From Chaetoceros tenuissimus (Eukaryota > Bacillariophyta > Thalassiosirophyceae > Chaetocerotales > Chaetocerotaceae), in assembly GCA_021927905.1 (NCBI GenBank), contig BLLK01000045.1:744001-808000 (forward strand): DNA of 64,000 nucleotides. Direction: 5' to 3'. The translations under genes and the position numbers were made by a program. This document shows positions 19,017 through 30,197 of this stretch, piece by piece; position 1 is the first letter of the stretch, and each line of letters opens with the position of its first letter. The notes beneath the pieces were generated by a model. The model was not told where the DNA came from. It did no database searches and worked only from the letters and a program-made list of their open reading frames with translations.

Positions 19017-19158
19017 TTATACTTATAAATATCCTTGAATTGAAATTTTGAATTGAACTTAGTGCCGGACAGACTAAAACGTCCCATTTTTGCCTCTTCA
19101 ACCTTCAACTCTACTTACCAAACTACTATTACGTGTATCTAGTAGGTACCATGGTAGT

Positions 19159-19190
19159 CTACGCTTGGCCACAAAACCGCCGGCAGTTTT
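19159..19190 (+). repeat. Left terminal inverted repeat
   Basis: It starts CTACGCTTGGCCACAAAAC and runs into a nearly palindromic AAAACCGCCGGCAGTTTT. The first 19 bases match the right end exactly in inverse orientation. Confidence 0.8.
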
Positions 19191-19383
19191 CCCGCAAAAA
19201 GTGAGAACGCTCTCACCACACACATAAAAACAAACACAAAAGCACTTCTCATATCAACACAACAAGCATACAAATATTAACTTAGAATGAAAACAAATAC
19301 ATAAGCTATTCCTATTTCTATTCTAATTAATTGGGGCCGAGCGCTTGCTGGAAATTATGCCACAGCGCAAGTGAATGTAAGAG

Positions 19384-21009
19384 CTAGTTGCTACTATGTC
19401 TGCCGACTGCTGCTTCAAAGCCACCCGACTGCGATTTATTATCAAGCATGCCAATACACAACTCATATGCAAGTTCAAATAAGTAAGCAACAAGCATCAA
19501 CTGAGTTTCTTTTTGAGTCATATTATCCCGTTTCTTACAATATTCCTCAATCCAGTCTTTGATACCATGAGTCCATTGCAATAGCCCATCATCCATATTT
19601 AGGATCTGTTCCACATCTTCCGGATCAAAACTTAGTCCACAATATTGATTCAAGTCTTGAAAAGATCCTTCTCTACACTCTGAGACTACGTCTTTATCTG
19701 CATAAGCCATGTAAAATGAACTTTGTAATTCACGTGATGCCTTTGCGTGTTCCTTATCTCTCGACTGGAATGTTGTCTTTCCATTTCCTCCAGCTTTTCC
19801 ACTACGGACCCATTTTCCAGACTCGCGATCATAATACAAATAACACCCGTGTAATTTTGTGTAAGGTTCATCTCTTGCATTGCAGAAAATTGACGTGGTA
19901 GAGGTACAAGGATTTCCAAGTACAGTTGTAGACCTTGTCACGAATTGATTTCTTAGATCTTTTTTGGTATGGGAAGCCAACGTAATGGCGGCACACAATC
20001 TTGGTAAGTTTCGTTCAGTCCATACAAAACATTCATGCTCGCGGTAGTTAATCATGTGATGAGTCTCAAAATGCATTTCAAATCTGTTTTGTAAGATTTC
20101 TAACAATACGTTTGCATCTTCCTTTAAGGTATCTTCTACTTCCTCATCCACTTCGATTCTTCTGACACCTTTGATGCTAGCGGAAAACTTTCTTCGCCAT
20201 ATTGCTTCTTGGAGATATTCAGATGGTTTCTTTTGTGAAAGGCTAATTGGTATAGCATTTTCATTGGTGTTCCCCTCTGTTAGATCAACGGTGTCATCGT
20301 CGCTATCATTGTTTTGATCGTCAGTACCGTTATCTTCAAGTTGGATATCAAGGATAGGAACAAAAAGAATCGGAGGCTTCTTCATCAACTGCTTTGCATA
20401 CTCTATAACTTCATTCTTCTTGTTCGGCAAGTTTCTAATGTTGGAAACAGTATCAAAAGAATATTCACGAACTACTCCAAACGACTGTAAAATAGGCATA
20501 GTCAAAGTATCAAGCATGATATCTAGTATTGCGTCGGGCATATCGTCAAGTGTAGCAAAATCAACTAACGTAACATTTGAATCTGACCCTTCTTTACATA
20601 AGGCCTTCCATTTTTTCTTGAGAGAATTAGTACCTTCATTTTGTTGCAGCAATGAATTAGTATTTTCATTAGTTCTTGCATCAGTGATCATCCGTGAAAG
20701 ATACTGCGATGCTTTCTCATTATTATCAACGTGCTGCCTTGCTTTTAATCTGAGTTGCCTATTCTTTTTATCAACTTTTTCCTGTATTGCCATTTTGATT
20801 TTCAAGCGATTTTCAATTTGCCATCGATGATTAAGCGTTTTTGCACGTTGTCGAGATTCTGCATCTGTATCCCTGTTCACTCTTTTGTCTTCATCTTCAT
20901 AAACGTCTTTAGGAAAATCTAAATCATCAAATTTCGCTTCTGACACAAAGCCTTTCTCTTGCCATTCATGCTGTAGTTCCTCAAATGATACATCAATCAA
21001 ATCTACCAT
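19384..21009 (-). CDS. Large unknown protein of the inverted-repeat element
   Basis: An intronless frame of 541 residues starts at a true ATG. The N-terminal 120 residues are charged and helical (RQRAKTLNHRWQIENRLKIK and KVDKKNRQLRLKARQHVD). An acidic stretch near residue 240 contains DDDTVDLTEG, close to a SUMO-interacting motif. The region at about residues 385-440 is the most structured: GCYLYYDRESGKWVRSGKAGG, then SRDKEHAKAS and SSFYMAYADKDVVSECR. Helical segments close the protein. I see no DDE/D triad, zinc finger or helicase motif that I can assign. Because it sits between terminal inverted repeats with a partner gene, it may be a new type of transposase or a DNA-binding factor (inference). 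Confidence 0.72.
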   Translation of the reverse strand: MVDLIDVSFEELQHEWQEKGFVSEAKFDDLDFPKDVYEDEDKRVNRDTDAESRQRAKTLNHRWQIENRLKIKMAIQEKVDKKNRQLRLKARQHVDNNEKASQYLSRMITDARTNENTNSLLQQNEGTNSLKKKWKALCKEGSDSNVTLVDFATLDDMPDAILDIMLDTLTMPILQSFGVVREYSFDTVSNIRNLPNKKNEVIEYAKQLMKKPPILFVPILDIQLEDNGTDDQNNDSDDDTVDLTEGNTNENAIPISLSQKKPSEYLQEAIWRRKFSASIKGVRRIEVDEEVEDTLKEDANVLLEILQNRFEMHFETHHMINYREHECFVWTERNLPRLCAAITLASHTKKDLRNQFVTRSTTVLGNPCTSTTSIFCNARDEPYTKLHGCYLYYDRESGKWVRSGKAGGNGKTTFQSRDKEHAKASRELQSSFYMAYADKDVVSECREGSFQDLNQYCGLSFDPEDVEQILNMDDGLLQWTHGIKDWIEEYCKKRDNMTQKETQLMLVAYLFELAYELCIGMLDNKSQSGGFEAAVGRHSSN

Positions 21010-21442
21010 TATTTTGGTTCACTTTTCTTTTTGCATCTTTAGCATTTCTATTTCCGCGTCCTGTTGATGATGTTGTCTGCTTGGGAGCTGGAGATGTAAA
21101 GGTAAGCGTCTCTCCTGCAATTGGAAAAGTGCCATCCTCCTGCATATCACCAAACTCGTCTTCATGGAGCTTATGACAATATTCCAAATCACCAAGACCA
21201 GATACCATGGGTAATTCTTTCTGAGCCATAGTGAGTTTGTTGAGTGCTGCTACACAATGTTCCTTAGCTTCTTTTTGAAGAGTTCGTTTTTTTTCCATGG
21301 AGATCTTCCGTTTCTTGTTTGTGTCAGCTAGTTCACATGTAATGCCATACAACATTTCCACATCCCTTTTTGCAGATTCATTTCTGCTATATACTTTTCC
21401 TGTATATATGTATTTTTTACTATGATTGTGAATATTAGGCAT
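20993..21442 (-). CDS. Small basic first gene of the inverted-repeat element
   Basis: A frame of 149 residues starts at ATG 21440-21442. It is basic, with a KKRKISMEKKRTLQKEAKEH helix that could be a nuclear-localisation or coiled segment, and a Gly/Asn/Lys-rich tail. Its stop codon lies inside the start of the next gene: the two frames overlap by 17 bases in different phases. No clear donor-acceptor pair joins them. The pair may be made from one transcript by leaky scanning, reinitiation or frameshifting. It may act as the accessory DNA-binding partner of the large protein (inference). No family was recognised. Confidence 0.6.
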   Translation of the reverse strand: MPNIHNHSKKYIYTGKVYSRNESAKRDVEMLYGITCELADTNKKRKISMEKKRTLQKEAKEHCVAALNKLTMAQKELPMVSGLGDLEYCHKLHEDEFGDMQEDGTFPIAGETLTFTSPAPKQTTSSTGRGNRNAKDAKRKVNQNNGRFD

Positions 21443-21530
21443 GATTCATCGTGTTGTTTTTTATGGATGATATGAAGATATGGTGTTGTGTGGTTGTGCA
21501 AAAATGAGGGGTGATTTAGGTGCGCGCCGC

Positions 21531-21572
21531 CGGCAGTTTTGTGAGCGTCGGCAGTTTTGTGGCCAAGCGTAG
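21531..21572 (-). repeat. Right terminal inverted repeat with doubled subterminal motif
   Basis: Read inward, it begins CTACGCTTGGCCACAAAAC. CGGCAGTTTTGTG occurs twice on the plus strand (21531-21543 and 21549-21561), 18 bases apart. This resembles paired transposase-binding sites. Confidence 0.78.
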
Positions 21573-21724
21573 TAGTCTATAAGTACAATTCCTCTGTGTA
21601 TGATATCTATCATTCAATTATTCATTACAATAACTACAACATCATAGATCCATGTTCTAAGTATTACTTGCACTTTGATTGTAATAATATTTACTACAAA
21701 GAACAACTAAAATACAAGAAACTT

Positions 21725-25694: not shown

Positions 25695-28600
25695 ATGCGT
25701 TTTCAGCAAAGTGCATTTTCAGTATTTTTATTGACGGCCGTCACCAAACAATGTCATTTTGCATCAGCAGCAGCATCCTTCACTTCTGGAGCAAATTTTC
25801 CAATCCTTAGAAATAACCATGTATCTGCAAGTGATTCGAATACTTTCAGAGCTGCACCCTTATTGGATTCACAAGACAATGTGTACCAACCTCTCTTCAT
25901 ACGACGACGAAGCAATGAAAAGAAAGAAGGACTATTTAGTCGGTTCATGTCTATAGGAGACGACGAAGAAAATAAAAACATTGAATCTAATGAAATTGAG
26001 GCAACTGAATCTAAATCAGTTCTAGGCACATCAATTCCTAGTTCATCGAATGGAGTTGCTGATGTAGGAGGATCATCGGTTGCTGGAACAAGTATTCCTA
26101 GCAGTGGTAGCGCCTTTCCTGGAAATGCATGGAATCCAGGAGGAGGGGATGTAACAAAAGCTTCAAATATATCAAATAGTGAAAAAGGCAACCCAGATGG
26201 GACCTCTGATACAGACACAAATGAAAAGACAACGAAAGATAGTCTAAATAAAGAGCAACAAGATGATAATAACAGTAAAGCAAAAGATGATAAAGACGAG
26301 GAACAGATTAGAGCCAAACGATTGGCGGAAGCTGAAGAAATACAGAGAAAATTTGAAGAAGAAGCAAAGCGAGCAAGAGAGTTGCGAGAGGCCATCGCCA
26401 AAGAAGAAGAAATACGTAAGTTGGCAAAAGAAGACGAACAGAGAAAAGCTTCTATAAATACAAGACTTGTTACACTTCAAGAAGCAGCAAAGAAAGAAGC
26501 AAAAGATAAGAACACATCAAATGCCACTGAAAAGGGAGATAAATCTAGTACTATACTCGGTAGAAATGAACGTCAACAGAATCTACCAATCAAAGAAGAA
26601 TCTTCGTCTTCACAACCATTTCCATCGCTGAAATCATTCCTTACTCCAGGATCACAGTCGCCTGAAAAAGACAGTAAGACGATTCCAAAAAGAGATGACA
26701 AGGTATTCGGCTTTGGTAATGACATCACTGAAAAAGGAACTGATGGACTTGATAAATCAGCCAAAAGAACAGTTAGGGTGAAGAAGCCTGTAATCATGAA
26801 TCGTGCGGAAGAGAACTCATGGCTATTGAAAATCTTCGGGAATGACGAGAAGAAAAAAGAGAAAAGCGTCAAAAAGGAAAAAATGGATATAGAGGCCCGT
26901 AGTATGAATAAGCTTGAGGAAATTCAGGACAGTTTCTCGAAATCTTTGGATAATATACAGAACGATTTTGATATGAAGATAAAAGAAATGATGCAGAAGA
27001 AAAAGGAGGACCGCGTAGACGTTGATAATTTAAAGTCTACGACAGGAGAACGAAAGGGCAATGACTTAAATCCATCGCAAATAAAAAGTGGCCAAGGTTT
27101 AGCAAAAAATCCAACATCATTGCAACCTCCAAAAAATATTGAGAAGAAAGTGATATCTCCAGATGATAAAAAGGTTGACGTAACTACTGTCCAGGGAAGA
27201 ACTACATTCCCGAGGAAAACGCAAGTGGTTCCAACTCAGTCTCAGCAACAAACTAAAAATATCCCTTACGTTGGTATGCCAGATAAAGACGTATCTCCAA
27301 CAGGTCGAAATGCTCCCATACTAGAAACCTCTAACAAACCAATTGTTGCAGTATCATCCTCGCAATCGGACACACGTATTGGAAGCAATCTTGACGTTGG
27401 GGGCAAAGCTTCTATTGGGTCAAAGAATCAATCAAATGAACTTCTGAATTCGGATTTCGAAATGGAAAAGAAGAAGTTGCAACAAGAGAGAGATGATGCA
27501 CTTCAAAAATTACAAGAGACAGAAAAGGCACAGAAAAGTTTCGAGGTCACCATTTCTACTTTGAAAGATGAACTTCGCGTTTCGATGGAGTCTGCAAGAA
27601 AGGACAAAGATAAAAAGTTTAGCTTTTATGAGCAAGAAATTAAAAGGCTGTACTCAGAAGCAGAGGAAGCAAAGAGAGAGAAGGGCCAAATGCAAAAGGT
27701 TCTTGAGGATGAAAGACTTGCAGCTGAATTGGAAAAGGATGAAATGTTCACCGCTTATGACGAAGAAATCAAAAAAGTACAGGCTGATGCAGAGAAAGCG
27801 AAGCAAGATCCAGTAAAGGAGAGACAAGAAAAAATGAAAATAGAAGCACAAAACCCCGCGAAAACTATTGAAAGTAACAAATCTCAACCAAACGATGCTG
27901 AAGTGGAAGCTTTGAGGAAGAAGTTTGCAGCGGAGAAGAGCACTCTAGAAGCAAACATGAGGTCCTTGCAGGCAGTGACAAATCAGACGAATGCTCTCAT
28001 TGAAAAGCTGAAAGCTGATGAAGAGAAATCCAAGCAAGAGAAGAATGAAATACAAAAGGCTCTCAACGATCTTCGAACGAACAGTAAAAAAGATGTGGAT
28101 GTTCAGCTGAAGGATATGAAGGAGAAGTTCGCAGCGGAGAAGAGTACGCTGCAAGCAAATTTCGAGGCTGAGAAGAGTACTCTAGAAGCAAACATGAGGT
28201 CCTTGCAGGCAGTGACAAATCAGACGAATGCTCTCATTGAAAAGCTGAAAGCTGATGAAGAGAAATCCAAGCAAGAGAAGGATGAAATGCAGAAGGCCTT
28301 GAAAGATCTTAAGCTTGCAAACAAGAAAAAAGTAGATAAGCAGCTTAAGGATATGAAGGAGAAGTTCGCGGCTGAGAAGAGTACTTTAGAAGCAAATTTA
28401 GCCTCTCTAGATGTAGAAAAGAATCAAGCCAATTCCTTAATCGAGAAGCTACAGGCAGACTTAAAACAAAGTGAAAAGGATAGAACGGAGATGGAGAAAG
28501 CCATTGATGAGCTCAATACTAGTAGCACAAAATCTATTGATAAGCAGATTGAGGACTCTGAGAAGAAATTCAAGGCCGAAAAGAAAATACTCCAGACTAA

Positions 28601-30197
28601 TATCTCTTCCCTGGAAAAAGAAAAGAATCAAGCTGAGGCATTATTGCAAGAAGCGAAGAAAGTCCAATCTACCTCGGAATCTGTGATTACTGATCTACAA
28701 TCGAAACTAAAAGATGCTTTAGAGAAGGTAAATGCTAAAAGTGAGCAAGTGGTATTACTAGAAGAAAGAAATACAGAGATTGAAAAAGAAAAGAAGACTC
28801 TGAAAAAGACTGTTTCCTCTCTGGAAAACGAAAAAAGTCAACTTCAATCAAAAATGAAGACTATATCGGATGCGAAATTAGAATATGAAAAAATAAATGC
28901 CAATTTGCAGCAGGAGCTCAAAACAGCCTTGGAGACTTCATCGACGAAAAGTAAACAGACTGAAGAACTGAATAGACAGCTAGAAAGCGCCAAACAAACG
29001 CTGGAGAAGGAAAAAGAGGAAATGTTTATGGCGTATGATTTGGAGATCAATAAGTTGAAGGATGAAGCAGAAAATGCCAAGAAAGATATGGTTGCTGCCC
29101 AGAAGTCCTTAGATGACTTCAAAGTCAGAATCAGTGAAGAACATGACAAAAATATTGAGGACATGAAGAAAAAGTTTGAGAAGGAGAGATCCGCTTTGAA
29201 AAGTAACATGAAGGCATTGGAATCTGAAAAGAACCAAGGTGACCTCATGCTACAAGAAATTGAGGCAGCCCAAGCTGCTTCTGATTCTATGATCGCTGAT
29301 CTAAAGTCTGAACTGAAAGACGCATTAGAAAAGGTTCAATCTAGCGATATGGTTGAACAATTAATTGCAACTCAGTCCACGATGGAAGAAACTATTAAAG
29401 ACCTTCAGAAACAATTGACTGAAAGTAAAAAGACTGCTCTAGAAGAAAAGACTCAAATGCAGCAAACATTCGAACTTGAGATCAAACAAATCCGTGAAAT
29501 GGCAGACGAAGCAGAGAAAGAGAAAATGAAGATGCTCAAGGAATTCAAAGAGGGATTCGATACTACTCTTGATACCCTCAAAAAGCAATTTGCGGAGGAA
29601 AAGGCAATTTTAGAAGCAGAAAAGAAAGAATTGAAAAGTTCCAAAGCTATGTTTGATTCAACAGTCGCGGATCTTCAGAAGGCGCTTGATACAATGGAAG
29701 AAAGAGCCAGAACCGAAAAGAATGAGTTGCAAAGGAACCACGATATAGAAATGGCAAAGATGAGGGAGATGTTGAAAATGGAGAAAGAGGATAGAATAGC
29801 TCGTCAAAGAGACCTGAAGGAGAAGGAAGATCTCCTACTTCTTCTGAAGAATAAAGATGAAGAGAAGCCTAGTCGAGGTTGGGTATCCAAAAAGCCACCA
29901 GTCTCCCAAGAAAGAACTGCAACGGCCTTTAAGCGTGCAGTAGCTCCTCCACCAGGAACATTGGATGATGAAAGTTTGATTGCGAAAATTCCAACAGACT
30001 ATGTACAAGTAAATAATGAAAACAAAATGGATGAAGATATAGTTGAAGAGGGCGATTTCTCCCTTGAAGAGAATGAGAGAAAACCATCTCGCTTGAGGAG
30101 AGTTTTCAGCAGACCAAAGAAAGAAAAGGCTCGTAGAAGTGAGCTAGCAGAATATGCGTCTGACTTTGTCGAAGTTGTTTCGTCATTGGTAAAGTAA
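25695..30197 (+). CDS. Giant coiled-coil protein with signal/plastid leader
   Basis: An intronless frame of 1500 residues starts at ATG 25695. Residues 1-28 form a signal peptide ending FASAAAS-FTSG, which fits a complex-plastid import junction. Residues about 50-300 are Ser/Gly/Asn/Lys-rich with a long Glu/Lys/Arg helix. From about 580 to 1400 the chain is almost continuous coiled coil with heptads. A 79-residue unit is duplicated nearly perfectly (KFAAEKSTLEANMRSLQAVT and onward). The tail is basic, with clusters of Arg/Lys near the end. Coiled-coil families are hard to name by eye. The leader suggests a structural or tethering protein in the plastid or secretory system rather than a cytosolic myosin-type tail. 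Confidence 0.8.
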   Translation: MRFQQSAFSVFLLTAVTKQCHFASAAASFTSGANFPILRNNHVSASDSNTFRAAPLLDSQDNVYQPLFIRRRSNEKKEGLFSRFMSIGDDEENKNIESNEIEATESKSVLGTSIPSSSNGVADVGGSSVAGTSIPSSGSAFPGNAWNPGGGDVTKASNISNSEKGNPDGTSDTDTNEKTTKDSLNKEQQDDNNSKAKDDKDEEQIRAKRLAEAEEIQRKFEEEAKRARELREAIAKEEEIRKLAKEDEQRKASINTRLVTLQEAAKKEAKDKNTSNATEKGDKSSTILGRNERQQNLPIKEESSSSQPFPSLKSFLTPGSQSPEKDSKTIPKRDDKVFGFGNDITEKGTDGLDKSAKRTVRVKKPVIMNRAEENSWLLKIFGNDEKKKEKSVKKEKMDIEARSMNKLEEIQDSFSKSLDNIQNDFDMKIKEMMQKKKEDRVDVDNLKSTTGERKGNDLNPSQIKSGQGLAKNPTSLQPPKNIEKKVISPDDKKVDVTTVQGRTTFPRKTQVVPTQSQQQTKNIPYVGMPDKDVSPTGRNAPILETSNKPIVAVSSSQSDTRIGSNLDVGGKASIGSKNQSNELLNSDFEMEKKKLQQERDDALQKLQETEKAQKSFEVTISTLKDELRVSMESARKDKDKKFSFYEQEIKRLYSEAEEAKREKGQMQKVLEDERLAAELEKDEMFTAYDEEIKKVQADAEKAKQDPVKERQEKMKIEAQNPAKTIESNKSQPNDAEVEALRKKFAAEKSTLEANMRSLQAVTNQTNALIEKLKADEEKSKQEKNEIQKALNDLRTNSKKDVDVQLKDMKEKFAAEKSTLQANFEAEKSTLEANMRSLQAVTNQTNALIEKLKADEEKSKQEKDEMQKALKDLKLANKKKVDKQLKDMKEKFAAEKSTLEANLASLDVEKNQANSLIEKLQADLKQSEKDRTEMEKAIDELNTSSTKSIDKQIEDSEKKFKAEKKILQTNISSLEKEKNQAEALLQEAKKVQSTSESVITDLQSKLKDALEKVNAKSEQVVLLEERNTEIEKEKKTLKKTVSSLENEKSQLQSKMKTISDAKLEYEKINANLQQELKTALETSSTKSKQTEELNRQLESAKQTLEKEKEEMFMAYDLEINKLKDEAENAKKDMVAAQKSLDDFKVRISEEHDKNIEDMKKKFEKERSALKSNMKALESEKNQGDLMLQEIEAAQAASDSMIADLKSELKDALEKVQSSDMVEQLIATQSTMEETIKDLQKQLTESKKTALEEKTQMQQTFELEIKQIREMADEAEKEKMKMLKEFKEGFDTTLDTLKKQFAEEKAILEAEKKELKSSKAMFDSTVADLQKALDTMEERARTEKNELQRNHDIEMAKMREMLKMEKEDRIARQRDLKEKEDLLLLLKNKDEEKPSRGWVSKKPPVSQERTATAFKRAVAPPPGTLDDESLIAKIPTDYVQVNNENKMDEDIVEEGDFSLEENERKPSRLRRVFSRPKKEKARRSELAEYASDFVEVVSSLVK
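27933..28290 (+). repeat. Recent 237-bp in-frame tandem duplication in coiled coil
   Basis: About 111 bases starting at 27933 recur at 28170 with one mismatch (GAGAAGAGC/TACTCTAGAAG and onward). The offset is 237 bases, or 79 codons. The unit keeps the reading frame and heptad phase nearly intact. Confidence 0.8.

Follow-up and report, generated by a model that had tools for sequence, protein, structure and literature searches.

In this work, we analyzed an inverted-repeat element of 2,414 bp in Chaetoceros tenuissimus, at positions 19159–21572 of a 64-kb stretch of its genome (hereafter the window, C32:744001–808000 of a 41,027,912-base assembly in 68 contigs), and we find that it is very probably a non-autonomous copy, with an internal deletion, of a cut-and-paste transposon of the DDD type from this diatom. 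The two long frames that it carries are the outer parts of one protein, which is encoded in full elsewhere in the genome, and the aspartate-bearing middle of that protein is missing from the window copy; it is on this basis that we read the element as a deleted copy.

The deletion and the full-length relative

As the first-pass annotation had claimed, the element contains two minus-strand frames without stops (541 and 149 amino acids, aa). A whole-genome search with both led to contig C7, where a single uninterrupted frame within an element of 3,993 bp encodes 1,205 aa, and, when the C7 protein was searched back, the 149-aa frame covered its residues 1–133 and the 541-aa frame its residues 665–1205 (identities in Table 1). 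Comparison at the DNA level indicates that the window copy has lost approximately 1.6 kb from its middle relative to both the C7 element and a further copy on contig C29, such that its earlier description as “apparently intact” does not hold. A change of phase separates the two frames at the junction, which falls near 20990–21045 and cannot be placed more exactly given the divergence between the copies. At the protein level, around 530 residues are gone (approximately 134–664 of the C7 protein), and it is these residues that hold the three aspartates that are invariant in the relatives. The window copy thus combines the full-length relative’s kind of ends with the absence of the core coding part. 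KP and further P-element derivatives with internal deletions, which belong to a different superfamily, also keep their ends and coding remnants, and by analogy the window copy, with its internal deletion, its ends kept, and coding remnants left behind, may be likened to them.

The C29 copy (6,581 bp) shares its ends with the window element, but its transposase frame is broken and other sequence lies within it, including a 621-aa frame with a match to a reverse-transcriptase zinc-binding family that falls below the cut-off (22.5 vs 27.5 bits). We note that CTEN210_07020 (P0003), deposited as a hypothetical protein, corresponds to a piece of this disrupted transposase copy (L037:1707–7087). The inverted arms of the C7 and C29 elements are 25 nt (100% identity) and 36 nt (89%) long, respectively, lengths that include 1 and 6 flanking bases.

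Ends, copies, and mobility of the family

Both the inverted-repeat ends and the short direct repeats flanking them, as originally claimed for this element, are borne out: the 24-bp ends are complementary at 23 of 24 positions and identical in their outer 19 bases, with TAGT on either side (Table 1). Across the window, a search from exact 12-base seeds recovered no inverted 24-mer pair other than these arms, at a tolerance of one mismatch and a spacing of 0.3–8 kb between arms; likewise, an 18-base end pattern, allowing up to three mismatches, occurs there twice, both times exactly, compared to 0.04 occurrences expected by chance. The ends also share an internal architecture, in that a box, CACAARAxYGCC(G/A), begins at position 12 of both ends in each of the five elements compared, and is repeated in direct orientation at position 30 of one end and inverted at position 23 of the other (again in 5/5 elements). 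This box varies among subfamilies and is near-identical at the two ends of any one element, and we consider these boxes to be candidate binding sites for the transposase.

Extending the search with the 18-base end pattern to the whole genome, again with up to three mismatches, yielded 21 matches vs 13 for a reversed control, and many of the weak matches may therefore be due to chance. All eight matches with zero or one mismatch, however, fall into four complete pairs, namely the window element, the C29 copy, and two short elements on C34 and C54 (556 and 545 bp, respectively). The matches with two mismatches (C19:702214, C38:17410, and C44:1106191) have no partner end within 1.5 kb; the first of these also matches the window element by DNA and is probably a fragment. 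The short C34 element matches five more copies of approximately 0.5 kb (85–86% over 486 bases), which have ends of the C7 type (CTACTGGTCGCC); in one copy, the right end is damaged. The fragments C34:2115202, C14:1607731, and C34:787600 were left out of the end search, and fragments were not scored for duplications.

Perfect 4-bp target duplications were found at nine of the ten family elements examined, that is, at every element with both ends readable: TAGT (window), ATAC (C29), AAAT (C7), ACAT (C34), ATTT (C54), ATTC (C33), CTAT (C16), GTAT (C58), and TTTT (C14). The chance of a shared 4-mer at two random window positions is 0.0053. At the tenth element (C34:1951978) the right end is damaged and the duplication is unreadable. 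In the case of the C7 element, the one site examined, a copy of the target on C13 equals the predicted empty site at 120 of 120 bases, with a single AAAT. This element is inserted within a repeat, as its 1,330-base right flank (L038:4171–5500) is matched, in full or in part, at ten other places with 78–99% identity (eight of them at 98–99%), and by two further short stretches at 76%. No empty site was found for the window copy, where 800 bases of the right flank occur once in the assembly. The ends could also be read as TA/CGCTTGG, with a TA target duplication, a reading that we rejected because a length of 4 bp follows from the empty site of C7 and from the duplications at the other elements.

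Taken together, the same-ended copies, the 4-bp target duplications, and the C7 empty site mean that the mobility of the family is well supported. A genome search with the ends had been proposed in the first-pass annotation as the way to confirm mobility, and the copies recovered by such a search are part of this support; the window copy itself is a deletion derivative without the transposase core.

Table 1. Features of the window element, in window coordinates.
Feature	Positions	Strand	Remarks
Left target-site duplication	19155–19158		TAGT
Left terminal inverted repeat	19159–19182	+	24 bp, CTACGCTTGGCCACAAAA...; box CACAAAACCGCCG at end positions 12–24
Second box, left end	19181–19190	–	Inverted, end position 23; found at one end of each of 5 compared elements
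541-aa frame	19384–21009	–	Residues 665–1205 (C-terminal part) of the C7 transposase; 74% identity
Deletion junction zone	20990–21045	–	~1.6 kb lost vs C7 and C29; exact point not fixed
149-aa frame	20993–21442	–	Its N-terminal ~133 residues align with residues 1–133 of the C7 transposase; 61% identity
Second box, right end	21531–21543	–	Direct, end position 30
Right terminal inverted repeat	21549–21572	–	24 bp; box at end positions 12–24
Right target-site duplication	21573–21576		TAGT

Outside the element, window positions 26001–30000 show a strong AT skew (0.35), with a positive GC skew across the 4 kb.

The parent transposase and its superfamily

All seven relatives in the alignment share three invariant aspartates; the last two are separated by 39 residues (DD39D) and the first two by 163–201 residues. 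The parent enzyme has the appearance of a cut-and-paste transposase of the DDD/E type. We would expect the full-length transposase to bind the boxes at the element ends, to excise the element, and then to insert it via a 4-bp staggered cut. The deletion in the window copy removed the presumed DNA-binding helices along with the three presumed catalytic aspartates. As this copy has kept both of its ends, a full-length transposase acting in trans might, in principle, still mobilize it.

We assign this enzyme to no superfamily; Sola2 fits by the length and composition of the duplications, in a comparison of described features. It is quite possible, if short of probable, that the family represents a lineage within the already described Sola2 superfamily. 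Sola2-type elements are described as having AT-rich 4-bp target duplications (AWWT; ATAT, AAAT, ATTT), terminal repeats of 12–21 bp, and, in one family, a transposase of 888 aa (PMC3627910). The duplications found here are likewise 4 bp and mostly AT-rich, and the short terminal inverted repeats, the large transposase, and the derivatives lacking most of the transposase are further points in common with that description. However, the protein in our case is 1,205 aa long with a C-terminal part of approximately 540 residues, two distant relatives, on C38 and C46, have duplications that are not AT-rich (CCAG and CTTG, respectively), and the resemblance is one of description.

A more tentative reading is that the family constitutes a new superfamily of eukaryotic cut-and-paste transposons. 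The transposase gave no credible match by sequence in Pfam, NCBIfam, or the PDB, and the two window proteins agree with the earlier claim that they could not be placed in a known transposase superfamily, in that neither has a Pfam match above the cut-off and a PDB search by sequence gave nothing for the 541-aa protein. A search of 5.8 billion proteins listed at least seven relatives besides the window’s own protein, none of them informatively named, although this search reaches only relatives sharing exact 5-residue words. Moreover, to our knowledge, Pfam does not cover every known transposon superfamily, and Sola, Chapaev, and other superfamilies with 4-bp duplications lie outside the sequence comparison made here. 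Foldseek searches with two predicted models returned no significant match, the models being poor and the result therefore silent on novelty. No relatives were confirmed in viral contigs or prokaryote genomes by scans using a few short peptide patterns, and no title or abstract opening naming this transposon family was found in the open-licence literature searched. The “new class” put forward in the first-pass annotation is not shown, and its alternative, an element using its own recombinase, is not supported for the window copy, from which the core is deleted.

Tc1/mariner transposases have 34–41 residues between their last two catalytic residues, a range into which the spacing of 39 falls, and Mos1 and Sleeping Beauty could be placed weakly on the core by structure, using poor models. 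Membership in Tc1/mariner nevertheless fails because the target duplication is 4 bp rather than TA, and this departure despite the DD39D spacing is also in keeping with a new superfamily. The interval between the first two aspartates likewise differs from the Tc1/mariner/pogo group, and none of the Pfam families DDE_1, DDE_3, or rve was found at E ≤ 1 in any of the seven relatives. Since rve is the Pfam name for the retroviral-integrase-like core, the core expected of a Ginger element was not found at this threshold. A kinship to Pogo/DDE_1, suggested by eye, was rejected after profile comparison with a single DDE_1 piece detected in the genome, a partial domain, gave nothing. Finally, the point of likeness with KolobokP (PMC9587614) is that it is a eukaryotic DDD/E transposon with extra protein content; it differs in its terminal direct repeats, which are long, and in a separate nuclease of the His-Me type, neither of these being seen in our family.

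The tyrosine-recombinase fold that had also been considered, and with it a Crypton-like element, can be set aside with near certainty, as the N-terminal frame of C29 matches the Pfam family Phage_int_SAM_1 weakly and below the cut-off (E 0.072, 13.8 bits vs 22.3), no such family is listed for the seven A1 members, and the terminal inverted repeats, 4-bp duplications, and clean empty site contradict it.

As a separate observation, the C46 copy of a distant relative is split by an insertion of approximately 0.2 kb (L061:2490–2745), whose ends are near-perfect inverted repeats (CTAGCCCATTCGGTACAACGCG) flanked on either side by TCATCA; this is perhaps another short inverted-repeat element family.

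The C-terminal module and the coding remnants

The C-terminal part of approximately 540 residues extends beyond the presumed catalytic core of the C7 protein, and is shared as a module by a distant relative of 1,242 aa (L062:2206–5931) and by a lone 389-aa frame (L063:1543–2712), with 24 columns invariant in all six sequences compared. Its residues G, Y, D, R, G, R, and H are invariant in 6/6 and appear GIY-YIG-like by eye. A GIY-YIG nuclease domain at the C-terminus is not supported, as there is no Pfam match, the best PDB profile match (E 0.11) is unrelated, and hhalign gives a probability of 0.1%, the last being a weak yardstick with two GIY-YIG sequences from this genome only.

Between the window copy and C7, the ratio of nonsynonymous to synonymous substitution rates (dN/dS) is 0.14–0.16 over 535 codons by two methods, at a synonymous distance of about 1, which is near saturation. 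Lineage-specific nonsynonymous:synonymous changes in the 541-aa part number 13:32 in the window copy, 25:50 in C7, and 17:34 in C29 (383 codons common to the three copies, with 85 codons differing in all three dropped), while those in the N-terminal part number 7:5 (window), 14:11, and 10:11 (125 codons, 35 dropped), the 7:5 of the window being too few to judge. As far as these codon changes can indicate, the 541-aa part bears no sign of long neutral decay, which would fit a recent deletion and a retained function alike.

This bears on an unlikely but biologically distinct reading, in which the remnant proteins are regulators, the window element being a KP-like derivative whose truncated products, a helical part from the N-terminus and the 541-aa C-terminal module, bind the transposase or its partners and thereby dampen transposition. 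Such a role would be in line with the two remnant frames still being open, and with codon changes in the 541-aa part that are no worse than those of the full-length C7 or of C29. Other core-less derivatives exist as well: P0002 (613 aa, on a 2,081-base contig) fuses an N-terminal stub of some 20 residues, as judged by eye, to the C-terminal part, the core being absent, and P0004 (on a 1,586-base contig) and the 389-aa frame near C34:1355654 comprise the C-terminal part only. However, a recent deletion explains the open frames equally well, with nearly all of the divergence from C7 then predating it; the 149-aa frame is uninformative, as noted above; and the contigs of P0002 and P0004 are short enough that splicing or truncation is possible. 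Still more doubtful is the combined proposition that this is an undescribed superfamily with DD39D spacing, 4-bp duplications, and asymmetric ends, whose C-terminal module of approximately 540 residues outlives the core and regulates the family in trans.

Returning to the window element as a deleted copy of a mobile family, the protein libraries searched miss this transposase, even though a piece of it has been deposited as the hypothetical protein CTEN210_07020. With a candidate enzyme encoded in one unbroken frame, ends that are defined, an empty site, and short derivatives (approximately 0.5 kb), this family provides what a transposition test in a diatom requires. If the C-terminal remnants were indeed under selection, they would provide another example of a transposon family limiting itself through its deletion derivatives.
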